From: Thiohalobacter thiocyanaticus
GTDB lineage: Bacteria > Pseudomonadota > Gammaproteobacteria > Thiohalobacterales > Thiohalobacteraceae
Length of the DNA: 64,000 nt
Reading direction: 5' to 3'
NCBI RefSeq assembly: GCF_002356355.1
Contig: NZ_AP018052.1
Span: 930,001 to 994,000, forward strand
The notes beneath the pieces were generated by a model, which made no database searches, was not told where the DNA came from, and worked only from the letters and a program-made list of their open reading frames with translations. Both the position numbers and the translations under genes were made by a program. Below are positions 28,205-40,883 of the stretch, in pieces (within the stretch, counting starts at the first letter, position 1; every line of letters starts with the position of its first letter).

Positions 28205-29275
28205 TCAGAAGTCGCGCCAGCTGCCCGGGATGCGGGCAACCTCGTAGATGGGCAGCCGGAGTTCGGAGGGGTGGCCGCTGGCCTGCTCGATGTGCGCTAG
28301 TCGGGTGAAGCCGGACAGGCGCTTGAGATCACCGTTGACGGCCAGGCTGCCGTAGATGCGCAGGCTGTCCCAGGCCGGCGCGGCGCCGCAGTCGGCGTCG
28401 ATGTACACGAAGCCGTGGATGCGCACGCCGGTCTGGAATGCGGGACAGCCGAGACCGGCGGGAAAGACCAGGACCACGGGTTGGTCCGGTGTGCCGAGAC
28501 TGCGGTGCCAGCGACCGTGGCGCAGGTCGCCGGGCCGGGCCCACCAGTAGCGGCGCCGGGCCTCCGGCAGCCGGTTGCGGTGATCGTCGGCCAGCTGCCG
28601 GAACCGGGCGCGGCTGACCGACAGCAGGGCCGGCCACAGGTCGGGCTGGCCTGTGGCCAGGGCGGCGAGGGTGCCGCGGTGCAGATCCAGGCCGGTCGTG
28701 TGCAGGCAGGCGAGGGAGGATGCGGTCCAGGCGGCGGTGCTGGCATTGTGCCGGTCGGCATTGCGGGGATAGAGATCGGCCGGCCCGTGAGGCTGGGACA
28801 GGCAGCCGGCCAGGATCAGCGGCGGGGCCTGTTCGGCGGTTTCGGTGAGGACCGTGTAGGGCCGCACGGCCTGCTGCACGATGCCGGTGATGTCCGGGGC
28901 CAGGGTGGCCTGGGTGTCGACGTGGATGCGCAGGTATTTCGGCCGCAGCGGGTGGCGTTCGTAGCGGATGTTGAGCCCGAAGCGGTCGCCGCTGGCGGTG
29001 CGCACGGGCGGCGGCGTGGCGGCCGGCACGGCGACTTCCCGATCGGGGGCGACTGTCAGCCAGCTGAGGGGATTGCGCCGCAGTTCGGTAATGGCGAATT
29101 CCAGCCCGGCCTCGGCGGCGAACCGGACCCGGGTGAAATCGGCCTGCTTGTTCGCCAGACGCTGTTCCGTATGGGTGGTGCGGGCAATGGTCAGGCTCAG
29201 GGCGGACACCCCGGCAATCAGCATCAGCACGGTGGTCAGGGTGGCGAGGCCGGTCTGGGTGCGTCGTATCCGCAT
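28205..29275 (-). CDS. PilX-like pilus assembly protein, second set
   Basis: A 356-residue protein. The hydrophobic N-terminus TGLATLTTVLMLIAGVSALSLTIART lacks a strong type IV consensus but matches PilX N-terminal domains. It is followed by RVRFAAEAGLEFAITELRRN, the PilX-type AAEAGLE signature. It is twice the length of the first pilX, with a large C-terminal domain (two or three cysteines, SLAVNGDLKRL near the end) that I do not recognise. Encoded 4 bases after pilW2. Confidence 0.82.
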   Translation of the reverse strand: MRIRRTQTGLATLTTVLMLIAGVSALSLTIARTTHTEQRLANKQADFTRVRFAAEAGLEFAITELRRNPLSWLTVAPDREVAVPAATPPPVRTASGDRFGLNIRYERHPLRPKYLRIHVDTQATLAPDITGIVQQAVRPYTVLTETAEQAPPLILAGCLSQPHGPADLYPRNADRHNASTAAWTASSLACLHTTGLDLHRGTLAALATGQPDLWPALLSVSRARFRQLADDHRNRLPEARRRYWWARPGDLRHGRWHRSLGTPDQPVVLVFPAGLGCPAFQTGVRIHGFVYIDADCGAAPAWDSLRIYGSLAVNGDLKRLSGFTRLAHIEQASGHPSELRLPIYEVARIPGSWRDF

Positions 29276-29279
29276 GCTT

Positions 29280-30044
29280 TCACCACTGCCGCAGCAGCCG
29301 GTCGTTGGCCAGCCGCACGCGGGTTTGCAGGGTGACGCTGACGTCCGGGTCGCTGCGGCTTTCTGCCGCCAGCCGGATGTCGAGGCGGCGCAGCAGTTGT
29401 GCCGGCTCGCCGCGCCGGCAGGCCTGTCCCAGCCGCTGCAGGTTCAGGCAATCGCGGTGCAGCCGGAATTCCAGCCGGGTGACCCGGGTGTCGCTGCCGG
29501 TCAGGTTCTGCCAGCGTCCGGCATCGCAGCCGTGGTGGCGCCCGCCCTGGCGCTGCTGCAGCCGGCCGCGGCTGAGGCGGAAGCCGAACAGTTCCATGTT
29601 CGCCCGGTTGGTATGCGGTCCGACGGCAGTGAGCGAGCCGATCCCGACCTCGCGGTCGGCATTCAGGTCATAGCTGTAGAGCAGGCAGGAGGCGGACGGT
29701 TCGCCGGGATGCCGGCCGGTCCGGAGGTTGTGCGGCGTCCGCATGAAGGGATTGTCGGCGGGCGCATCCAGCCCCGGGGTGCCGGCCCAGTAGCCGCTGC
29801 GTCGGGCGTCCACGGCCATGTGGCCGAGCAGTTCCCTCGCCTCGTAGTTGAGCCGGGTGAGCCGCAGGCTGGCGGCGGTGGCCAGGGCGTTGCCCTGATA
29901 CAGCCGCAGGGCGCCGGCCAGTACGATCAGGCCCAGGGTGCTGCCGATCAGCAGTTCGGTCAGGGTGAAGCCGCGCTGGTTCAGCCCGCATTTCTCACCG
30001 CCGTTCGTCGCAGTAGAAGGACGGTGAAAAATGCGGGCTAGCAT
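29280..30044 (-). CDS. PilW-like minor pilin, second set
   Basis: A 254-residue prepilin with the site NQRG|FTLTELLIGSTLGLIVLAGALRLYQGN and the PilW block NYEARELLGHMAVDARRSGYWAG. It starts at ATG 30044 with the stop of the upstream gene overlapping (ATGCTAG), hence coupled. The leader of about 27 residues (MLARIFHRPSTATNGGEKCG...) is long for the family. Compared with the first PilW it is 115 residues shorter. Confidence 0.86.
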   Translation of the reverse strand: MLARIFHRPSTATNGGEKCGLNQRGFTLTELLIGSTLGLIVLAGALRLYQGNALATAASLRLTRLNYEARELLGHMAVDARRSGYWAGTPGLDAPADNPFMRTPHNLRTGRHPGEPSASCLLYSYDLNADREVGIGSLTAVGPHTNRANMELFGFRLSRGRLQQRQGGRHHGCDAGRWQNLTGSDTRVTRLEFRLHRDCLNLQRLGQACRRGEPAQLLRRLDIRLAAESRSDPDVSVTLQTRVRLANDRLLRQW

Positions 30045-30595
30045 GGCGCGACCCCCCATGCCCCCTGCGCCCCGGGACGGCAGAGGCGGATGCGTCCGAG
30101 CGGGCTGACACGCACCTGCAGCTGCTGCCCGTAACGGTTTTCCAGTTCCAGCCGGCCGGCGCTGGCCAGCCCGCGCAGCGGGTCGAAGCGCAATGATGCC
30201 CCCAGGGTGAAGGCGGCACGCTTCAATGTTATGCCGGGCCAGGGGCCGGCGTCGCGGCGCACGAGTCGCTGCACGTTGCGGCGGGTGAACAGGCAGGCCT
30301 CGGGGTGGCTGGCGTCCGTCTGTCTGCAGTCGCAGTCGGGTTGGCGCGACAGGCCATAGCACCAGCTGCCGCCGGCGCGGAAGTGCAGGTATACCGGCTG
30401 GTTGCCGCCCCGGGTGATCGCCTCCTGGCGGGCCTGCTGCAGGTCGGCGGCCAGTGCCCGCGCGACGCTGTGCAGGCGCTGACGTTCCAGCCACTGGCCC
30501 AGGGCGGGCGCGGCCTGGGTGATCAGCAGCACCAGCAGGGCGAGCGCGAGCAATACCTCGATCAGGGTGACACCCCGTTGGTCGTGATCGTCCAT
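30038..30595 (-). CDS. FimT/GspH-like pseudopilin, second set
   Basis: A 185-residue prepilin: QRG|VTLIEVLLALALLVLLITQAAPALGQWLERQRLH, then ALAADLQQARQEAITRGG, the GspH/FimT signature. Several cysteines (WCYGLSRQPDCDC, EACLF) suggest disulfides. ATG 30595 has GGAG about 8 bases upstream; an in-frame ATG at 30694 gives an implausible leader. First gene of the second minor-pilin operon, divergent from the pilE-like gene at 30704. Confidence 0.87.
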   Translation of the reverse strand: MDDHDQRGVTLIEVLLALALLVLLITQAAPALGQWLERQRLHSVARALAADLQQARQEAITRGGNQPVYLHFRAGGSWCYGLSRQPDCDCRQTDASHPEACLFTRRNVQRLVRRDAGPWPGITLKRAAFTLGASLRFDPLRGLASAGRLELENRYGQQLQVRVSPLGRIRLCRPGAQGAWGVAPC

Positions 30596-30703
30596 GATCC
30601 TGTCTCCAAGGTGTGCGGGTGTTAGTATAGGGGGATGGCGGGCGCGTGCCTGCCAGCCGCTGACAACGGATTCTGTCAGCGAGGGATTACGCAAGGAGGC
30701 GAT

Positions 30704-31258
30704 ATGAACGTGATACGCAGACGGGGCCTGCCCCGGATGAGGCTGGTCCCGAGGACGTCATTCCCGCGCAGGCCGGAATCCAGCAGGCCGCCGATGCCAA
30801 AGGTACTGGATCTCCGCCTGCGCGGGGATGACGGGTTGGTGAAACCCGGCCCGGGCAGGCGGCATTCGGGCCTGACCCTGTTGGAACTCATGGTCGTGCT
30901 GGTGATCGTGGCGCTGCTGACAACCCTGGCCTGGCCGGGCTTCGTCGAGCACTTCCAGCGGGTGCGGCGGCAGGATGCGATCACCACCCTGCTGCGCATC
31001 CAGCTGCAGCAGGAACAGTGGCGGGCCCAGGACACCGACTATGCGACCCTGGCCGAGTTGGGCTGGGGAACGGCGCAGTCTCTGGCGGGGCATTACCGGC
31101 TGGAGTTGCACGCCCGCGGTCCGGCCGGCTACCGGGCGATCGCGCGGCCGCGGCGCAATGGGGCCCAGGCCGGAGATCCCTGCGGGGCCTTCGCGCTGGA
31201 TCAGGACGGGCCGGTGCTGGGCTCGGGGTTCGCCGGCGCCCGCTGTTGGCGAGGTTGA
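30704..31258 (+). CDS. Second PilE-like pilin with a repeat-derived leader
   Basis: A 184-residue prepilin with AAGGAGG 6 bases before ATG 30704. The pilin part starts at residue 57 (RRHSG|LTLLELMVVLVIVALLTTLAWPGF), so the leader is 56 residues instead of 6-25. Leader residues 18-43 are encoded by a complete 78-bp GTCATTCCCGC palindrome (30756-30833), which is 26 codons and keeps the frame. The mature protein has a C-terminal Cys pair (DPCGAFALD, ARCWRG). PilD removes the leader, so the insertion may be tolerated. The stop overlaps the thiO start (TGATG). Confidence 0.8.
   Translation: MNVIRRRGLPRMRLVPRTSFPRRPESSRPPMPKVLDLRLRGDDGLVKPGPGRRHSGLTLLELMVVLVIVALLTTLAWPGFVEHFQRVRRQDAITTLLRIQLQQEQWRAQDTDYATLAELGWGTAQSLAGHYRLELHARGPAGYRAIARPRRNGAQAGDPCGAFALDQDGPVLGSGFAGARCWRG
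30756..30833. repeat. GTCATTCCCGC palindrome inside a prepilin leader
   Basis: CGTCATTCCCGCGCAGGCCG ... GCCTGCGCGGGGATGACGG arms, 78 bp. It is the only member of the family in this window that lies within a coding sequence. Confidence 0.85.
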
Positions 31259-32448: not shown

Positions 32449-32877
32449 ATGGAAACAACCGTCCACAAGCCGCTGGATGCCAGGCAGGTCATGGGCCTGC
32501 TGACGCAGCATGATATCCAGCCCACCCAGCAGCGGGTGCAGATCGCGCGCGTCCTGTTCGCACGGGACCAGCACCTGTCGGCCGATGATGTGCTGCGGAT
32601 GGTCAACCAGGATACCGCCCGCGTCTCCAAGGCCACCGTCTACAACACCCTCGGCCTGTTCGCGAGCAAGGGGCTGGTACGGGAGGTCATCGTCGATCCC
32701 AGCCGGGTTTTCTACGATCCCAACACCGAACCTCACTACCACTTCTACAATGTCGATACCGGCAGCCTGACCGACATCGATCCCCGTGAATGCAGCCTGA
32801 CGCGCCTGCCGGCCCCGCCCCCGGGGACGGTCACCGACGGCGTCGATATCATCATCCGGGTCCGCAACGGCGACTGA
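32449..32877 (+). CDS. Fur-family transcriptional regulator without the structural zinc cysteines
   Basis: A 142-residue Fur superfamily protein: winged helix with PTQQRVQIARVLFARDQHLSADDVL and KATVYNTLGLFASKGLV, then a dimerisation part with EPHYHFYNVDTGSLTDID. Fur, Zur and many PerR proteins have CxxC pairs here; none is present (the one Cys is in RECSLT). This resembles Irr/PerR-like branches that sense heme or peroxide, but I cannot place it firmly. No obvious operator or target is next to it. It lies between thiO and an Fn3 protein. Confidence 0.82.
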   Translation: METTVHKPLDARQVMGLLTQHDIQPTQQRVQIARVLFARDQHLSADDVLRMVNQDTARVSKATVYNTLGLFASKGLVREVIVDPSRVFYDPNTEPHYHFYNVDTGSLTDIDPRECSLTRLPAPPPGTVTDGVDIIIRVRNGD

Positions 32878-32989: not shown

Positions 32990-33094
32990 GTTCTATCCGG
33001 TAACTCATTGATGTTGTTTTGCGAATAAATAGTTTTGTGCAATAATATCGACTGTTCGGAGCCGCGCACAGACAAGCTGCGGAGCCAGAATCAG

Positions 33095-33556
33095 ATGCCT
33101 TTATCCAGACTGAACAAAATCCGCGACCCCCGCGCCCTGCGGTCGCTGGGACTGACGGGCCTGCTGTTGCTGTTCGCTGTCCTGCCGGTTCGGGCGGCTC
33201 CGCCCGTGCTCGAAACCAGCCAGTCTCTGGCCACGGCCGGCGACTTCCGGCTCAGCTGGCAGGGCGGCGCAGAAGGGGCGGTCTACGAACTCCAGCAGTC
33301 CGCGGCGCAGGGGTTCACCGAGACCCGCACCCGCTACCGGGGACCCGACACGGCCACCCAGCTGAGCGGTCTGCCCGACGGTGACTATAGTTACCGGGTC
33401 CGGGTGGTCGAGCCCGGTCCCTCGGCCTGGAGCGAGGCGGTGACGGTCGAGGTACGCCATCACCCGTTGTCCCGCGCCCTGGGTTTCTTCGCCGTCGGGC
33501 TGGTGGTGTTCGTGGCCACTGTCATCCTGATCACGCGCGGCGCGCGCGACGACTGA
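33095..33556 (+). CDS. Fibronectin type III-like exported membrane protein
   Basis: A 153-residue protein. Signal segment about residues 18-34 (LGLTGLLLLFAVLPVRA), a single Fn3-like beta-sandwich (GDFRLSWQGGAEGAVYELQQS, ...LSGLPDGDYSYRVRVVEPGPSAWSE), and a C-terminal membrane helix (ALGFFAVGLVVFVATVILITRG) followed by a short basic tail. It is probably anchored in the inner membrane with the Fn3 domain outside. ATG 33095 is chosen because GGAG lies 10 bases upstream. Function unknown; it directly precedes the amidohydrolase cluster in the same direction and could be its first gene. Confidence 0.75.
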   Translation: MPLSRLNKIRDPRALRSLGLTGLLLLFAVLPVRAAPPVLETSQSLATAGDFRLSWQGGAEGAVYELQQSAAQGFTETRTRYRGPDTATQLSGLPDGDYSYRVRVVEPGPSAWSEAVTVEVRHHPLSRALGFFAVGLVVFVATVILITRGARDD

Positions 33557-33575
33557 GCCGGACAAGGATCCGTTT

Positions 33576-34820
33576 ATGTCAGCACCCTTTGAAATCGATT
33601 TCCCCCGCCTGCAGGCCGACATCGAGGCCCTGTCCCAGATCGGCCGGCGCGAGGACATGGGCCTGTACCGCATGGCCTTCAGCGACGGCGACATGGCCGG
33701 CCGCGAGTGGCTGGCCGGGCGCATCGAGGCGGCCGGTCTGGAACTGTTCGTCGACGGCGCGGCCAATGTTCACGCCCGCCTGGGCTGGGACGGCAAACGC
33801 CCGAGCGTGATGATGGGCTCGCATGCCGACACCGTGCCCGGTGCCGGGCACCTGGATGGCGTCCTGGGCGTGCTGGTCGCACTGGAATGCGTGCGCTGCT
33901 TCAAGGATCACGACATCCCCCTGCGCTTTCCCCTGGAAGCGGTCTCCTTCACCGACGAGGAGGGCCGCTTCGGCGGCATGTTCGGCTCCCAGGCCCTGTG
34001 CGGTTTCCTCACCCCGGAGAAGATCCATCAGGCCCGCGACCTCGACAACACCAGCATTGTCGAGGCCATGCAGGCCCGCGGCATGAACGCCATGGATGCC
34101 CTGCGCGCCGCGCGCCGGCCGGAGACCCTGCATGCCTTTGTGGAACTGCACATCGAGCAGGGTCCGGTGCTGGACCGCCACGGCGTCGGCATCGGCGTGG
34201 TCGACGGCATCGCCGGGCTGTTCAAGTGGGACGTGCGCCTGATCGGCGCCGCTAACCACGCCGGCACCACGCCCATGACCATGCGCCGCGATGCCTTCCA
34301 GGGCCTGGCCGAGTTCGCCATGGAGATCAACCGCATCCTGGAGGAGCACGGCAGTCCGGCCAGTGTCGCCACCATCGGCCGGGCCCAGTTGTTCCCCGGC
34401 GCGGCCAATGTGGTGCCGGGCACGGTGGAGTTTTCGCTCGAGGTGCGCGATACCGATCCCCAGGTGCTGTCGCAGCTCAATGATGCCTGCCGTCGCACCC
34501 TGTCCACCATCGCCCGCCGCCGCGATCTGATGTTCGAGTTCGAGGTGCTGAGCGAACTGGAGCCGGTGCACTGCGACAAGGGCCTGATCGAGACCATCGC
34601 CGAGACCGCCGATCAACTGGGCATGGAGACATTGCGCATGCCCAGCGGTGCGGCGCACGATACCCAGATGCTGGCCAGACTGACCCGCGCCGGTATGATC
34701 TTCGTCCCCAGCAAGGAAGGGCGCAGTCACTCCCCGGCCGAATGGACCGACTGGGAGGATATCCAGCGCGGCGCCAATCTGGCGCTGCAGGTGCTGCACC
34801 GGCTGGCGGCCGAATCATGA
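33576..34820 (+). CDS. M20-family N-carbamoyl-amino-acid/allantoate-type amidohydrolase
   Basis: A 414-residue binuclear-zinc hydrolase. The ligand pattern of the allantoate amidohydrolase/N-carbamoylase branch is intact: His83 (GSHADTVPGAG), Asp94 (HLDG), Glu128-129 (FTDEEGRFGGMFGSQAL), His192 (ELHIEQGP) and His385 (SHSPAEWT). The dimerisation block WDVRLIGAANHAGTTPM is also typical. These enzymes remove a carbamoyl group (giving CO2 and NH3) from N-carbamoyl amino acids, ureidopropionate or allantoate. Exact substrate not decidable. It heads a run of nitrogen-metabolism genes, of which the next is an isochorismatase-type hydrolase after a palindromic repeat. Confidence 0.88.
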   Translation: MSAPFEIDFPRLQADIEALSQIGRREDMGLYRMAFSDGDMAGREWLAGRIEAAGLELFVDGAANVHARLGWDGKRPSVMMGSHADTVPGAGHLDGVLGVLVALECVRCFKDHDIPLRFPLEAVSFTDEEGRFGGMFGSQALCGFLTPEKIHQARDLDNTSIVEAMQARGMNAMDALRAARRPETLHAFVELHIEQGPVLDRHGVGIGVVDGIAGLFKWDVRLIGAANHAGTTPMTMRRDAFQGLAEFAMEINRILEEHGSPASVATIGRAQLFPGAANVVPGTVEFSLEVRDTDPQVLSQLNDACRRTLSTIARRRDLMFEFEVLSELEPVHCDKGLIETIAETADQLGMETLRMPSGAAHDTQMLARLTRAGMIFVPSKEGRSHSPAEWTDWEDIQRGANLALQVLHRLAAES

Positions 34821-34834
34821 GGACTGCCTGACAC

Positions 34835-34913
34835 GTAGGTCGGGTTGGCGTAGCGTAACCCGACAGCTGTGGCATGTTGGGTTACGGTGCTGCGCACCTG
34901 ACCCAACCTGCAT
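34835..34913. repeat. GTAGGTCGGGTTGGCG...GTAACCCGAC double element
   Basis: Two hairpin blocks, TAGGTCGGGTTGGCGTAGCG and TGTTGGGTTACGGTGCTGCG, ending ACCTGACCCAACCTGCAT. It is nearly identical to 38451-38530 and interrupts the amidohydrolase cluster. Confidence 0.85.
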
Positions 34914-34951
34914 CTGCCTGCCGGCCGCCGAACAACTGCCGAAGAAGCGAA

Positions 34952-35704
34952 ATGGCTATGGAAGACAACAAACGGGAAGCACAACAGATCGAACAGTTCA
35001 CCGATGTCGATCCGCTGCGGGAGACCTACCGCGAATCCATCACCGATGTTCCGGCGCTGCAGAAATCCCTCGAGCGGCACAACACCGCGCTGCTGTGCAT
35101 CGATCTGCAGTACCTGGATGCCGCCCGCGGCCATGGCGTGTTCGCCGACGCCGAACGCTCCGGCGTGCCGATCGCCGCGCAGGAGTACTATTTCGACCGC
35201 CTGGAACACGTGGTGCTGCCCAACGTGCGCCGGCTGCAGGATGCCTTCCGCGACAACCGTCTCGAAGTGATCCATACCCGCATCCAGTCGCTGACCCAGA
35301 ACGGCCGTGACCGCGGTCCGGGCCACAAGCGTCTGGGGCTGCATGCCGCGCCGGGTTCCAAGGAGGCCGAGTTCATCGAACTGGTGGCCCCCTGCGGTGA
35401 CGAGATCGTGATCAACAAGACCGCCAGCGGCGTGTTCAACTCCACCAACATCGAATATATCCTGCGCAACCTGGGCATCACCGGCCTGGTGGTGGTGGGT
35501 GTGTACAGCAACGAGTGCGTCTCCACCGCCATCCGTGACGCCTGCGATCTCGGCTTCTACGTCACCCTGGTGGAGGATGCCTGCGCCACCGTCACGCCGG
35601 AACTGCAGCAGGCCACCATCACCACCATGAAGGACCGCTATGCCCGGGTCATGACCACCCATGAGATCATTGACGAAATCAGGGAAGTGGTGACCGATGA
35701 ATAG
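34952..35704 (+). CDS. Isochorismatase-family cysteine hydrolase
   Basis: A 250-residue hydrolase of the isochorismatase/nicotinamidase/N-carbamoylsarcosine amidase superfamily. The triad is Asp51 (LLCIDLQYLD), Lys156 (INKTASGVF) and Cys189 (VYSNECVSTAIRDA). The N-terminal extension of about 45 residues is longer than usual. Members split amide bonds, including N-carbamoyl groups, which fits the neighbouring M20 amidohydrolase. ATG 34952 begins MAMEDNK; the stop overlaps the symporter start by 8 bases. Confidence 0.88.
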   Translation: MAMEDNKREAQQIEQFTDVDPLRETYRESITDVPALQKSLERHNTALLCIDLQYLDAARGHGVFADAERSGVPIAAQEYYFDRLEHVVLPNVRRLQDAFRDNRLEVIHTRIQSLTQNGRDRGPGHKRLGLHAAPGSKEAEFIELVAPCGDEIVINKTASGVFNSTNIEYILRNLGITGLVVVGVYSNECVSTAIRDACDLGFYVTLVEDACATVTPELQQATITTMKDRYARVMTTHEIIDEIREVVTDE

Positions 35705-37145
35705 CGTCAACAGCGCCATTCTGGATCCGACCATCGGCTGGACCATCCTGGCCATCTTCAGCGTGATCTGGGTGTTTCTCGGCTGGTTCTGGGGCCGCAA
35801 GGCGCAGGAACTGGACGAGTACGTGCTGGCCGGGCGCAAGGTCGGCATTGCGCTGGGCACCGCCACCGCCATGGCCACCTGGGTGACCAGCAACACTACC
35901 ATGACCGCGCCCGAACTGGCCTACCGCATGGGCGTATGGGGCATGCTGGGCTACTCGCTGGGCTCGGTCGGGCTGCTGCTGTTCGCGCCCCTGGCGCGGC
36001 GCATCCGCCGGCTGATGCCGTTCGGCTACACCAGCGGCGACTTCGTGCGGCTGCGCTACGGGCGCACCGCCTGGTATGTGTTCCTGGTGATCTCGCTGGT
36101 CTACGGCCTGGGCTGGCTGGTCAGCATGGGTATGGCCGGCGGCAAGCTGATCAACGCCCTGACCGGCATCGAGTATATCTACGGCATGTCGGTGATCCTG
36201 GTGATCTGCGTCGGCTACACCCTGCTGGGCGGTTTCCGCGCCGTCATCGGCACCGATTTCATCCAGGCCATCCTGATCCTGACCGGGCTGGTCGTCATCG
36301 CCTATCTCGCCATCGACAAGATCGGCTTCGACCAGATCCATGAAAGCGTGACCCGCGAGCGGCCGGAACTGCTCAATCTGCTGATGCCGGCGGCGATCAT
36401 GTTCCTGTTCAACAACCTGCTGTTCGGCGTGGGCGAGATCTTCCACTCCAATGTCTGGTGGAGCCGGGCCTTCGCCTTTCGCGAGGACGTCGGCTTCAAG
36501 GCCTATTTCACCGCCGGCATCTTCTGGGCGCCCATCCCGATCGTTGCCGGCTTCATTGCCCTGGCCGCGCCCGCCATGGACGTGAACGTGCCGGCCGCCG
36601 ACATGGTCGGCCCGCTGGTCTCCAGCGAGATCCTGGGCGTGACCGGCGCCGTGCTGGTGCTGATCATGGTGTTCTCGGCCCTGTCCTCCAGCCTGGACTC
36701 GCTGCTGGCGGCGACCAGCATCCTGCTGGTGGAGGACATCTACCGCCGTCACCTGCGGCCGAAGGCCGCGCCGGGTGAACTGCGCAGCGCCACCCGCTGG
36801 ACCATCCTGGGCCTGGGGATCCTCACCTGGATCGTCAGTGCCCTGCAGCTCGGTACCCTGGCGCAGGTGCTGCACTTCACCGGCGCCTTCGTGGCCAGCA
36901 CCATCTGGCCCATCGCCGCCGGCCTGTTCTGGAAACGCACCAACACCGTCGGTGCAGTGCTGGGCATGGCCCTGGGCAGTATTGCCGGTATCATTGCCTA
37001 TCACATGATCGGTTTCTACGTGGCCGCCCTGACCGGTGCGGCCGTGTCCATGGCGCTGGTGCTGGTCAGTACCTGGCTCTGGCCGCAGGACTACGACTGG
37101 GATAGGCTGTGCGAGGCCCACCCCGGCGAGGAGCAGACTGCATGA
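35697..37145 (+). CDS. Sodium:solute symporter (SSS family)
   Basis: A 482-residue inner-membrane transporter with about 13 membrane helices. SSS features include WGRKAQELDEYVLAGRKVG, ATWVTSNTTM near the first helix, YTLLGGFRAVIGTDFIQAI (the R-x-x-x-x-TD-x-x-Q signature) and SALSSSLDSLLAATSILLVEDIYRRHL. It uses a sodium gradient to import an organic solute, presumably the substrate of the adjoining hydrolases. It overlaps the upstream hydrolase by 8 bases and the downstream 40-residue gene by 4, which implies coupled translation. Confidence 0.9.
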   Translation: MNSVNSAILDPTIGWTILAIFSVIWVFLGWFWGRKAQELDEYVLAGRKVGIALGTATAMATWVTSNTTMTAPELAYRMGVWGMLGYSLGSVGLLLFAPLARRIRRLMPFGYTSGDFVRLRYGRTAWYVFLVISLVYGLGWLVSMGMAGGKLINALTGIEYIYGMSVILVICVGYTLLGGFRAVIGTDFIQAILILTGLVVIAYLAIDKIGFDQIHESVTRERPELLNLLMPAAIMFLFNNLLFGVGEIFHSNVWWSRAFAFREDVGFKAYFTAGIFWAPIPIVAGFIALAAPAMDVNVPAADMVGPLVSSEILGVTGAVLVLIMVFSALSSSLDSLLAATSILLVEDIYRRHLRPKAAPGELRSATRWTILGLGILTWIVSALQLGTLAQVLHFTGAFVASTIWPIAAGLFWKRTNTVGAVLGMALGSIAGIIAYHMIGFYVAALTGAAVSMALVLVSTWLWPQDYDWDRLCEAHPGEEQTA

Positions 37146-37264
37146 TGGCAAGCCAGGATTTTTTATCCATACTGGTCAGCATCGCCCTGGTGATCACCGC
37201 CATCGCGCCGGTGGCGCTGCTGGTTATGCTGATTCGCGACTGGAAGCGAGGTAATCTCTGGTGA
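37142..37264 (+). CDS. 40-residue single-span membrane protein coupled to the symporter
   Basis: Begins ATGATG at 37142 (MMASQDFLSILVSIALVITA...) and ends RDWKRGNLW, with one hydrophobic helix of about 22 residues and a basic C-terminal tail, so N-out/C-in is expected. Its start overlaps the symporter stop (ATGA) and its stop overlaps the GTG start of the next gene (GTGA). Such tight coupling on both sides argues that it is translated. By analogy with small subunits of other sodium symporters (MetS-like, DUF4212-like) it may be an accessory subunit; this is inference. Confidence 0.72.
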   Translation: MMASQDFLSILVSIALVITAIAPVALLVMLIRDWKRGNLW

Positions 37265-38334
37265 ACGAGTACGAAGCGCTGCTGCGCGAGCCGGTTCAAC
37301 CCAAGGACGGCACCCGCGGCAACGAGCGTCCCCTGGCCCTGGTCGAACATGTGCAGGAAGACCCCGAGCCGCTGGTGGATCTGGCCAACCGGCATGTGGT
37401 CTCCGCCCGTCAGTTCGACCGCCGCACCGTGGCCCAGCTGTGTCGCATGGCCGCCATGTACGAAACCACGCCGCACCTGATGCAGCCGCCGCTGGCCGGC
37501 AAGATCCTGATCAGCGCCTTCTACGAGCCCAGCACCCGCACCCGGCTGTCGTTCGAATCGGCCTGGCATCGCCTGGGCGGCGATATCATGTCCATCACCG
37601 ATCCGGCCAGTACCGGCATCGCCAAGGGCGAGTCGCTGGCCGACGTGGCCGAGATGTTCAACAACTACGGCGACCTGGTGGTACTGCGCGACAGCAGCGA
37701 TACCGCTGTCTACGAGATGCTGGAATCCCTGCGCATCCCCATCATCAATGCCGGCAACGGCATCGACGAGCATCCCACCCAGGCCCTGGCCGATGTTTAT
37801 GCGATTTTCAAATGGCGCCCGGAGTTGCTGGATGCGCAGGTCGCCGAGGCCGACAGGATCCGCATCGGCATCATCGGCGTGCCTGCCCGCATGCGCACCG
37901 TGCGCAGCCTGCTGCTGTTCCTGTCGCTGTTTCCGCAGGCCATCAGCGAGATCGTGATCATCTGCGATACCGAGGATGCCTTCGACGATGGTCAGAAGGC
38001 GGAGTTGGAGCAGGCCGGCCTGAGCCTGCGGGTGGCGCGGCGGCTCAACGACGAACTGCCCGGGCTGGACGTGGTGTACATCAACTCCATCGCCTGGGTC
38101 GGCGATACCTTCGAGCGCCTGGGCGAGGAACTGGCGCTCACCGCCAACTCGCCGCTCAAGCCCGGGTCGATCATCCTGCATCCGCTGGCGCGCGGCGAGG
38201 AACTGTCCACCGACCTGGACGCCACACCGCACAACTGGTACTTCGCCCAGGCCCGCGGCGCGGTCTATATCCGCATGGCACTGTTGACCACCATCACCCA
38301 GCGCATCTACCAGGTGATGGACCTGTCGACATAA
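37261..38334 (+). CDS. Aspartate/ornithine carbamoyltransferase-like protein
   Basis: A 357-residue transcarbamoylase fold. The carbamoyl-phosphate site is intact: STRTR (91-95), the mobile-loop lysine Lys122 in STGIAKGESLADV, HPTQ (171-174) and HPLAR (307-311). The second-substrate region of ATCase (the RVQKER block with two aspartate-binding residues) is not there; the same region reads VVYINSIAWVGDTFERLGEE. There is an N-terminal extension of about 40 residues. So it probably carbamoylates, or decarbamoylates, something other than aspartate. GTG start overlaps the stop of the small membrane protein. It is not the housekeeping pyrB by context. Confidence 0.82.
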   Translation: MNEYEALLREPVQPKDGTRGNERPLALVEHVQEDPEPLVDLANRHVVSARQFDRRTVAQLCRMAAMYETTPHLMQPPLAGKILISAFYEPSTRTRLSFESAWHRLGGDIMSITDPASTGIAKGESLADVAEMFNNYGDLVVLRDSSDTAVYEMLESLRIPIINAGNGIDEHPTQALADVYAIFKWRPELLDAQVAEADRIRIGIIGVPARMRTVRSLLLFLSLFPQAISEIVIICDTEDAFDDGQKAELEQAGLSLRVARRLNDELPGLDVVYINSIAWVGDTFERLGEELALTANSPLKPGSIILHPLARGEELSTDLDATPHNWYFAQARGAVYIRMALLTTITQRIYQVMDLST

Positions 38335-38347
38335 TGCCTCAGTATTC

Positions 38348-38440
38348 CGTCATCCCGGTGCAGGCCGGGATCCAGAAACCGCCGCTGCTTATGGATTCAG
38401 GCTGGAGCCTGTCCTGGCGCAGGCCAGGGCCGGAATGACG
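38348..38440. repeat. GTCATCCCGGTGC family palindrome
   Basis: Diverged member: CGTCATCCCGGTGCAGGCCG ... CTGGCGCAGGCC ... GGAATGACG, 93 bp. Confidence 0.8.
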
Positions 38441-38450
38441 AGTGAAGCAC

Positions 38451-38530
38451 GCAGGTCGGGTTAGCGCAGCGTAACCCGACAACCCGCGGCATGTTGGGTT
38501 ACGGTGCTGCGCACCTGATCCAGCCTGCAT
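38451..38530. repeat. GGTCGGGTTAGCGCAGCG double element
   Basis: Near copy of 34835-34913 (blocks GGTCGGGTTAGCGCAGCG and ATGTTGGGTTACGGTGCTGC, ending in ATCCAGCCTGCAT). With the palindrome at 38348 it fills the gap before the AsnB-type gene. Confidence 0.82.
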
Positions 38531-38579
38531 CCGATTTTATGCAAAATTAGGTTAACTCTTTAAAGAAGGTCTCAAGACT

Positions 38580-40604
38580 ATGTGTGGAATCGCCGGCTAC
38601 ATGCACGCCGATCCGGATAAGCAGATCGACCCCGACCAGTTGGTGGCCATGGCCGCCATCCAGTATCACCGCGGCCCCGACGGCTTCGGCTATCACGTCA
38701 TGCAGGACCGCGGCGTGGGCTTCAGCCATGCGCGCCTGACCATCATCGACCTGGACGAAAACCGCGGCAAACAGCCCTTCGTCTCCGAGGACGGCAACCT
38801 GATGCTGGCCATGAACGGCGAGCTCTACGACTACAAGCGCATCCGCGCCGATCTCACCTCGCGCGGCGCGCGCTTCCGCACCAAGAGCGACTCCGAGATG
38901 GTGCTGCACCTGTATCCGCAGAAGGGCCTGGAGGATATGCTGCCTTACCTGCGCGGCGAGTTCGGCATCTCGCTGTATGACAGGGAGCGCGACCGCCTGA
39001 TCCTGATCCGCGACCGCTTCGGGGTAAAGCCGCTGTACTGGACCGAGCAGAACGGCCAGTTCGTGTTCGGCTCGGAGCTCAAGGTCCTGTTCGCCCATCC
39101 CGATGTGCAGCGCCGCTTCAATGCCAAAGGCGTATACCATCAGCTGATGCAGACGGTGGTGCCCGGCAGCACCGCCTTCGACAACATCCACCAGGTCAAG
39201 CCCGGGCACGCGGTGATCGTCGAGCGCGCCCACGGCAAGTTCAAGATCCGCGACTTCAAGTACTGGGACATGGACTTCCCCACCATGGAGGAACGCGGCG
39301 CCCAGCTCGAGGACGACTACGACGAGGATGAATATATCGAAGGCGTGCGCCGGGAACTGCTGGAGGCCGTGCAGCTGCGCCTGGAGGCGGACGTGCCCGT
39401 GGCCTGTTATCTGTCCGGCGGCATCGACTCCTGCGCCATCCTGGGCATGTCCGCCGCCACCCAGCAGTCGCCGGTCAAGGCCTTCACCATCGGCTTCGAC
39501 GACGCCGACTACGACGAGTCCGCCATCGCCCGCGAAATGGCCGAGTCGGTCGGCGCCGACCAGGACATCATGATGCTCAACGCCGGCCACCTCTACGACA
39601 ACTTCGAGGAGACCCTGTGGCACGCCGAGCGCACCATCTACAACACCCTGGGCGTGGCCAAGCTGCTGATGAGCCGGCACGTGAACCAGGCCGGTTACAA
39701 GGTGGTGGTCACCGGCGAGGGCTCGGACGAGCTGTTCAGCGGCTACCCGGCCTTCCGTATGGACCTGTTCCGCCACGGCCTGGACACCCTGCCCGAGGCC
39801 GAGCGCGCCGTCATGCAGCAGATGCTGGCCGAATCCAATAAGCTGTTCTCCGGCGCCATGCTGGCCGAGGACGAGTACGACGATCCGGCGCTGGACAAGC
39901 TGGTCGGCTTCACCCCCAGCTGCCTGCAGCCCTGGCTGTCGGCGTCGGAGCATGTCGCGCCCTTGCTGCACCCGAAACTGCGCAAGGAGGTGGAAGGCTA
40001 TCGGCCCGGCACGGCCATCGCCGAGGCGCTGGACGGCGACATGCTGGAAGGCCGCCACCCGCTGGACAAGGCCCAGTACGTCTGGATCAAGACCATGCTC
40101 GAAGGCCAGATCCTGACCTGGGGCGGTGACCGCGTGGACATGGCCAACTCCATGGAGGCGCGCCCGCCCTTCCTGGATCATCACCTGGCCGAGTACGCCG
40201 CCCGGCTGCCCGTGACCATGCGCATCCGCGGCCGCACCGAGAAGTACGTCCTGCGCGAGGCCATGCGCGGCCTGCTGCCTAAGGTCCTGTACGAACGCGA
40301 GAAGTTCGCCTTCATGGCGCCGCCCGCGCATACCGACCCGAAGAAATGGGCGGCCATGAAGGCCCTGGCCGACCGCTACCTCTCCGACGAGGCCATCGAG
40401 CAGGCCGGCATCCTGGATCCGGCCGGCGTGCGCGCCCTGTTCGAGAAGCACGAGGACCCCGAGACCAGCGCCTCCACCCAGGTGCAGCTCGACGCCGTCA
40501 TCAACCACATGATCGGCGTCCAGGTCCTGCACAAGCACTTCGTGCAGACCGATGTCCCCGCCCAGGCCCGTGCCAAAGCGAAGGAACTCGGCTGGGCGGC
40601 CTGA
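38580..40604 (+). CDS. AsnB-type glutamine-dependent amidotransferase
   Basis: A 674-residue protein of the asparagine synthetase B family. N-terminal class II glutaminase with Cys2 nucleophile (MCGIAGYMHADP), RGPDGFGY and AMNGELYDY. The C-terminal ATP-pyrophosphatase domain has CYLSGGIDSCAIL, FTIGFDDADYDES, VTGEGSDELFSGY and EARPPFLDHHLAEYA. It activates a carboxylate with ATP and transfers ammonia from glutamine. It is longer than E. coli AsnB (554) and has an acidic insert (ERGAQLEDDYDEDEY). Given the context, the acceptor may not be aspartate. Two palindromic repeats separate it from the carbamoyltransferase gene. Confidence 0.88.
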   Translation: MCGIAGYMHADPDKQIDPDQLVAMAAIQYHRGPDGFGYHVMQDRGVGFSHARLTIIDLDENRGKQPFVSEDGNLMLAMNGELYDYKRIRADLTSRGARFRTKSDSEMVLHLYPQKGLEDMLPYLRGEFGISLYDRERDRLILIRDRFGVKPLYWTEQNGQFVFGSELKVLFAHPDVQRRFNAKGVYHQLMQTVVPGSTAFDNIHQVKPGHAVIVERAHGKFKIRDFKYWDMDFPTMEERGAQLEDDYDEDEYIEGVRRELLEAVQLRLEADVPVACYLSGGIDSCAILGMSAATQQSPVKAFTIGFDDADYDESAIAREMAESVGADQDIMMLNAGHLYDNFEETLWHAERTIYNTLGVAKLLMSRHVNQAGYKVVVTGEGSDELFSGYPAFRMDLFRHGLDTLPEAERAVMQQMLAESNKLFSGAMLAEDEYDDPALDKLVGFTPSCLQPWLSASEHVAPLLHPKLRKEVEGYRPGTAIAEALDGDMLEGRHPLDKAQYVWIKTMLEGQILTWGGDRVDMANSMEARPPFLDHHLAEYAARLPVTMRIRGRTEKYVLREAMRGLLPKVLYEREKFAFMAPPAHTDPKKWAAMKALADRYLSDEAIEQAGILDPAGVRALFEKHEDPETSASTQVQLDAVINHMIGVQVLHKHFVQTDVPAQARAKAKELGWAA

Positions 40605-40611
40605 AAGGTCC

Positions 40612-40640
40612 CGTCATTGCGAGCGCAGCGTGGCAATCTC
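40612..40640. repeat. Half of a CGTCATTGCGAG element
   Basis: CGTCATTGCGAGCGCAGCGT GGCAATCTC with no matching right arm; a decayed or single-ended copy. The remaining gap to 40768 holds no recognisable feature. Confidence 0.65.
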
Positions 40641-40768
40641 CATGGCTCAACTGCTGGCGTCAGGAGACCCGTCGTGAGCCTCGAGAAGGCCAGGGTGAGG
40701 GGGAGCCAGGAGAGGCCGCCAAGCTCAACGGCGACCTGTGACCGAGCCTAAACCCCTGAAAACCAAAA

Positions 40769-40807: not shown

Positions 40808-40881
<74 letters not shown>

Positions 40882-40883
<2 letters not shown>

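Follow-up and report, generated by a model that had tools for sequence, protein, structure and literature searches.

A gene cluster of Thiohalobacter thiocyanaticus (assembly GCF_002356355.1) quite probably serves the making, uptake and recycling of N-alpha-carbamoyl-glutamine amide (CGA) in salt-loving bacteria. The cluster lies in a stretch of 64,000 nucleotides, hereafter the window, which covers positions 930,001 to 994,000 of contig NZ_AP018052.1 (the single contig of the genome, 3,233,441 bases); positions below are those of the window. An earlier note, made from the letters of this DNA, had described six genes in one direction, four of them overlapping, as a putative nitrogen pathway. 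All six were found on the + strand: an M20-type hydrolase, an isochorismatase-like hydrolase, a sodium:solute symporter (SSF), a tiny protein of 40 amino acids, a carbamoyltransferase (CTase) of the aspartate carbamoyltransferase (ATCase) fold and an AsnB-type amidotransferase. The isochorismatase, SSF, tiny-protein and CTase genes overlap by 8, 4 and 4 bases. The cluster should extend one gene upstream, to an FN3-like membrane protein, for seven genes in all. The set bears out one coherent pathway of carbamoyl and amide chemistry, as the note had supposed, and osmolyte synthesis, transport and recycling account for every gene, which nitrogen scavenging does less well.

CGA is glutamine that is carbamoylated on nitrogen and amidated at C-1, obtained from Ectothiorhodospira marismortui, alias E. 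mobilis (PMC1224877). It was reported in 1991 as a salt-protecting molecule of one purple bacterium. In 2013 it was still recorded for one organism only (PMC3857566), and a survey of phototroph genomes for osmolyte genes, published in 2020, named it without genes (PMC7824335). The producer, E. marismortui DSM 4180T as listed by Imhoff 2020, now goes under the name E. mobilis DSM 4180. Its genome has all of the cluster genes: one locus (L025) reads MarR-M20-isochorismatase-CTase-AsnB, and the symporter, the FN3-like gene and the 40-residue protein form an unlinked trio (L138). For each of the two modifications of CGA there is thus one matching biosynthetic enzyme, and for the reversal of each one matching hydrolase.

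The acceptor pocket of the CTase is altered. ATCase binds the alpha-carboxylate of aspartate through Arg167 and the side-chain carboxylate through Arg229. Among 33 CTase homologues, numbered after the E. coli sequence, itself verified with the PDB, the carbamoyl-phosphate site (Ser52, Thr53, Arg54, Thr55, Lys84, Arg105, His134 and Gln137) is intact in every one, and so is Arg167. The position of Arg229 is occupied by Ala, Ser or Thr and that of Gln231 by Ala, Val, Ser or Leu, with Arg or Gln in 0 of the 33; the position of Pro268 is Ala throughout. The PyrB of the same genome retains both Arg229 and Gln231. Since the CTase keeps Arg167 and is without Arg229 and Gln231, its acceptor is likely, as judged from these residues, to be an amino acid with a free alpha-carboxyl group and an uncharged side chain. 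The CTase resembles ATCase in fold (TM-scores of about 0.73 by query length and up to 0.9 by target length) and in the carbamoyl-phosphate site, with about 30% identity, whereas it differs in the three replaced positions and misses both ATCase equivalog cut-offs (TIGR00670, 177.5 bits against 237; NF002032, 178.3 against 263). The homologues of DSM 4180 (183 bits) and Idiomarina (201 bits) also stay below the TIGR00670 cut-off. An AlphaFold model of the CTase has the ATCase fold (pLDDT 80, pTM 0.83), with the 80s loop poorly modelled. Pyrimidine synthesis was rejected for the CTase, as PyrB is encoded separately and the aspartate site is lost. Nor are the CTase and the AsnB-type enzyme the only pyrB and asnB of the cell, a doubt that the earlier note had left standing: besides PyrB, the genome encodes ArgF and four other full-length Asn_synthase proteins.

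The AsnB-type protein is above the cut-off of TIGR01536 (420 bits against 267), and its translation has the Cys2 nucleophile (MCGIAG) and the SGGIDS loop. The M20 protein is above that of the hydantoinase/carbamoylase model TIGR01879 (378 against 204) and scores 532 bits with NF006771 (cut-off 399). Its best PDB match is 3n5f, an N-carbamoyl-L-amino acid hydrolase, with the catalytic motifs conserved, and it retains the metal-ligand motif and the carboxylate-binding motif of the L-carbamoylases. The latter motif serves in these enzymes to bind the carboxylate. The resemblance to ErtE, L-N-carbamoylase and allantoate amidohydrolase covers TIGR01879 and both motifs; unlike ErtE and AllC, the protein misses the cut-offs of both (ErtE model NF058540, 385 bits against 520), and its gene has those of amide-forming enzymes as company, not those for ergothioneine or allantoin. 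Similarly, the isochorismatase-like protein reaches no equivalog cut-off (BiuH, 70–71 bits against 370; RutB, 57 against 378). Allantoin, hydantoin and creatinine pathways were rejected, as the cluster is without their partner enzymes and the curated equivalog cut-offs are missed. The separate PyrB and these missed cut-offs agree with the earlier note, which had set aside pyrimidine synthesis and standard allantoin or hydantoin use.

Strict co-occurrence across genomes accompanies these features. A sample of 370 genomes from the class (Gammaproteobacteria) had the CTase in 22, at 61–100% identity, in 14 families and 19 genera. The AsnB orthologue (65–80%) is in all 22 and, as a contig-end fragment, in genome G309; the next best AsnB reaches 37%. 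SSF orthologues (57–77%) occur in exactly the same 23 genomes, isochorismatase orthologues (70–79%, next best 43%) in 22 of these 23, and the M20 gene in all 22 genomes tested for it, one of them at 46%. G309 is a draft: SSF, with the isochorismatase next to it, and AsnB lie at contig ends, and the CTase of this genome may fall in an assembly gap. The naive chance of such co-occurrence, with kinship ignored, is about 1.5e-34. AsnB is directly downstream of the CTase in 21 of the 22 genomes; in the exception, G199, the two are on different contigs, the CTase being 661 bases from a contig end and AsnB incomplete. Linkage does not wholly account for the co-occurrence, because SSF is unlinked from the enzymes in three genomes of the CTase set and AsnB is unlinked in Thiorhodospira sibirica, where the CTase (L030) and an AsnB orthologue of 76% identity (L137, 8939–10948) are at separate loci with the other cluster genes near neither. 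That the genes might fail to cluster in other genomes, the second doubt of the earlier note, is thereby excluded. T. thiocyanaticus Hrh1 (L014) has the same cluster, with enzyme and symporter genes 94–99% identical.

The make-up of the cluster is modular. Across the named loci compared, the best 80 of 210 found, the core consists of CTase and AsnB; the distribution outside Gammaproteobacteria is under-sampled because of this choice. The M20 and isochorismatase genes usually occur or are missing as a pair, being absent in the Idiomarina group and present in most others. In Ectothiorhodospira the order is MarR-M20-isochorismatase-CTase-AsnB with the transport trio elsewhere, and in metagenome-assembled genomes of Leptospiraceae type it is PII-FN3-SSF-CTase-M20-isochorismatase-AsnB. 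The CTase/AsnB pair, the hydrolase pair and the transport trio form a pattern of synthesis, recycling and transport.

The FN3-like gene is upstream in most loci and accompanies the SSF gene even where the latter is unlinked from the enzymes (L138–L140). Its product, which has no Pfam match, is probably an accessory part of the symporter, to judge from this company. The 40-residue protein has no Pfam model; an equivalent open reading frame directly follows SSF in most of 72 loci, usually through an ATGA overlap, and the three loci with an unlinked SSF have it as well. The search returned a candidate at 70 of the 72, that of L092 not being convincing. We propose that this helix is a small subunit of the symporter. 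The symporter of three parts, FN3-like protein, SSF and 40-residue helix, is conserved at L138–L140 and in the window (33095–37264), the helix ending in (R)DWxxxxLW.

The pathway would run as follows. The CTase would carbamoylate the alpha-amino group of glutamine from carbamoyl phosphate, and the AsnB-type enzyme would then amidate the alpha-carboxyl group with ATP and a second glutamine, giving an uncharged solute. Carbamoylation is placed first because the CTase keeps Arg167, which binds the alpha-carboxylate. Import or recapture of CGA would fall to the Na+ symporter together with the FN3-like protein and the 40-residue helix. Upon salt down-shift, the isochorismatase-like protein would act as a CGA 1-amidase that restores the alpha-carboxyl group, and the M20 protein as an N-carbamoyl-glutamine hydrolase that yields glutamine, NH3 and CO2. 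The amide would be removed first, because the M20 protein keeps the carboxylate-binding motif of the L-carbamoylases.

The hosts and the neighbouring genes suggest an osmotic role. Named isolates with the CTase belong to Thiohalobacter, Ectothiorhodospira, Thioalkalivibrio, Thiorhodospira, Thiohalophilus, Kangiella, Aliikangiella, Idiomarina and relatives, all of which we take to be marine, halophilic or soda-lake/haloalkaliphilic. MarR genes bordering the cluster at L059, L062, L063 and L078 share 47–55% identity with those that adjoin ectA. As no NCBIfam equivalog fits the MarR neighbours, their tie to EctR rests on the comparison with ectA-linked MarR genes; the MarR of Thioalkalivibrio and Ectothiorhodospira is just 30–39% like these. 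While this EctR/CosR-type neighbour is shared with ectoine clusters, ectABC is not part of the present cluster; in the window no MarR gene adjoins it, and ectA was not found in the genome (best score 22.5 bits). Directly before the cluster, PII nitrogen-regulator genes, some quite divergent, occur in Leptospiraceae/spirochaete-type assemblies (L052, L053, L065, L066, L068, L070, L074 and L082). A PfkB-type kinase gene, found close to some clusters, seems to be an ordinary neighbour. In T. versutus at 3 M Na+, glnA, glnK and amt are strongly up and nitrate assimilation is up, with betaine genes unresponsive (PMC9062515); this response would fit a nitrogen-rich extra solute and does not show one. 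Nothing was found in the open-access full-text literature on salt-induced CTase/AsnB genes.

One of the closest known parallels is the N-acetylglutaminylglutamine amide (NAGGN) system (asnO-ngg; PA3459–PA3461), also glutamine-based, in which an AsnB-type amidotransferase masks the alpha-carboxyl group of a glutamine-derived uncharged osmolyte, as is proposed here. A MarR regulator (PA3458) is adjacent in that system too, and in P. aeruginosa this protein represses the operon (PMC8070244). NAGGN is, however, a dipeptide masked on nitrogen by a GNAT acetyltransferase, whereas the present cluster would use a carbamoyltransferase to give a monomeric glutamine derivative and has a dedicated SSF transporter and two hydrolases. 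The NAGGN system itself was rejected: the AsnB-type protein misses the cut-off of TIGR03104 (292.6 bits against 570), and a linked GNAT acetyltransferase/dipeptide synthase (Ngg) is absent from the window's cluster, none being noticed among the conserved neighbours of the 80 loci. The XrtA/PEP-CTERM exopolysaccharide amidotransferase identity was likewise rejected, as TIGR03108 is missed (396.8 bits against 816.9).

Several points weigh against CGA as the product. The pocket residues of the CTase make aspartate an unlikely acceptor but do not prove glutamine. CGA has been measured in DSM 4180 only. For E. marismortui it is described as a minor solute that escaped detection by Raman (PMC3857566). 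Glycine betaine and sucrose are the solutes reported for Thioalkalivibrio, another host of the cluster, CGA being unmentioned (PMC5328954), and in the genome paper on Thiohalobacter the list is limited to trehalose, sucrose and betaine (PMC6504805). In Kangiella and Aliikangiella, the M20 protein is distant (44–46%) and the cluster holds no isochorismatase homologue, and recycling in that lineage must therefore differ.

A rival reading is another product of the same logic, a neutral N-carbamoyl amino-acid amide made from, for example, asparagine or a small dipeptide, or a relative of CGA in Idiomarina and Leptospiraceae. The pocket speaks against aspartate without naming glutamine, identity between groups drops to about 61–65%, and Idiomarina is without both hydrolases. 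Nevertheless, CGA is the only known solute of this kind and comes from a strain with all the genes, glutamine usually donates the amide and makes up the main nitrogen pool, and the closest named M20 equivalog, though below its cut-off, is the N-carbamyl-L-glutamate hydrolase ErtE; we regard a different product as unlikely. Nitrogen scavenging, close to what the earlier note had in mind, would have the symporter import ureido compounds, the hydrolases free an amino acid and ammonia, and the CTase run in reverse to carbamoyl phosphate and ATP. The M20 and isochorismatase families are usually catabolic, PII adjoins some clusters, and reverse carbamoyltransferases are known. Yet the invariant core is the CTase and AsnB, two anabolic enzymes driven by carbamoyl phosphate or ATP, and AsnB-type enzymes consume ATP and glutamine to form amides; the hydrolases are the dispensable part. 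The cluster has no hydantoinase or allantoinase, the hosts are largely autotrophic sulfur oxidisers of saline habitats, and ectoine-type MarR genes border it in several genomes, all of which makes a nitrogen-utilisation pathway distinctly improbable. A modification system for specialised metabolites or the cell surface, unrelated to osmotic balance, could be imagined from the 397 bits of the AsnB-like enzyme with the XrtA/exopolysaccharide model, a score below the cut-off. This we hold to be very improbable, since glycosyltransferase, polyketide, peptide-synthetase and exosortase genes were not noticed among the conserved neighbours and AsnB is strictly paired with a carbamoyltransferase and a symporter.

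The features of the cluster are collected in Table 1. The earlier note had placed the six genes rightly and had left out the FN3-like gene. For the isochorismatase, the start called at 34874 was rejected because it falls inside a 44-nt intergenic repeat; ATG 34952 is likelier. The FN3-like ATG at 33095 lies within an open reading frame that opens at 33035, and a promoter-like site before it is probably the start of the transcription unit, as read from its consensus elements.

Table 1. Features of the cluster and its surroundings (window positions)
Feature	Position	Strand	Basis or remark
Promoter-like site, TTGCGA-16-AATAAT with extended TG	33019..33046	+	Upstream of FN3-like gene; consensus scan only
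FN3-like secreted/membrane protein	33095..33556	+	Signal peptide, one domain, C-terminal membrane helix, read from sequence
M20-type N-carbamoyl-amino-acid hydrolase	33576..34820	+	TIGR01879; PDB 3n5f best
44-nt intergenic repeat, copy 1	34871..34914		M20/isochorismatase gap
Isochorismatase-like cysteine amidohydrolase	34952..35704	+	PF00857, 117 bits
Sodium:solute symporter (SSF)	35697..37145	+	PF00474
40-aa protein, single membrane helix, end RDWKRGNLW	37142..37264	+	Equivalent open reading frame directly after SSF in most loci
Carbamoyltransferase of ATCase fold (CTase)	37261..38334	+	PF02729/PF00185
44-nt intergenic repeat, copy 2	38488..38531		CTase/AsnB gap; 95% identical to copy 1
AsnB-type glutamine-dependent amidotransferase	38580..40604	+	TIGR01536

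The two repeat copies occupy the two non-overlapping gaps of the cluster, and more repeat-like stretches lie near 38345–38440 and 40613–40650. Directly downstream of the AsnB gene is a tRNA-Thr(CGT) (40808–40883); transferred DNA often lands at tRNA genes. A Fur-family regulator (32449–32877) and type IV pilus minor-pilin-like genes on both strands (28205–31258), the latter with prepilin-like segments at their N-termini, lie just upstream of the cluster.

For CGA, an orphan metabolite since 1991, no proposal of genes was found in the open-access full-text literature, though a subscription paper could hold one. Family models would label the enzymes aspartate carbamoyltransferase, allantoate amidohydrolase and asparagine synthase, labels under which the pathway would stay hidden. 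We think it rather likely that the cluster is the first genetic basis for CGA, that its carbamoyltransferase has a new specificity (glutamine N-alpha-carbamoyltransferase), that its amidotransferase is new within the AsnB family and that its Na+ symporter is made of three parts (FN3 protein, SSF and 40-residue helix). CGA would then occur in at least 14 families of Gammaproteobacteria and in Leptospiraceae-like spirochaetes. If this is true, the CTase/AsnB pair would be a genome marker for CGA, and a solute of one organism would prove common in halophilic sulfur oxidisers, purple bacteria, Idiomarinaceae, Kangiellaceae and some spirochaetes.

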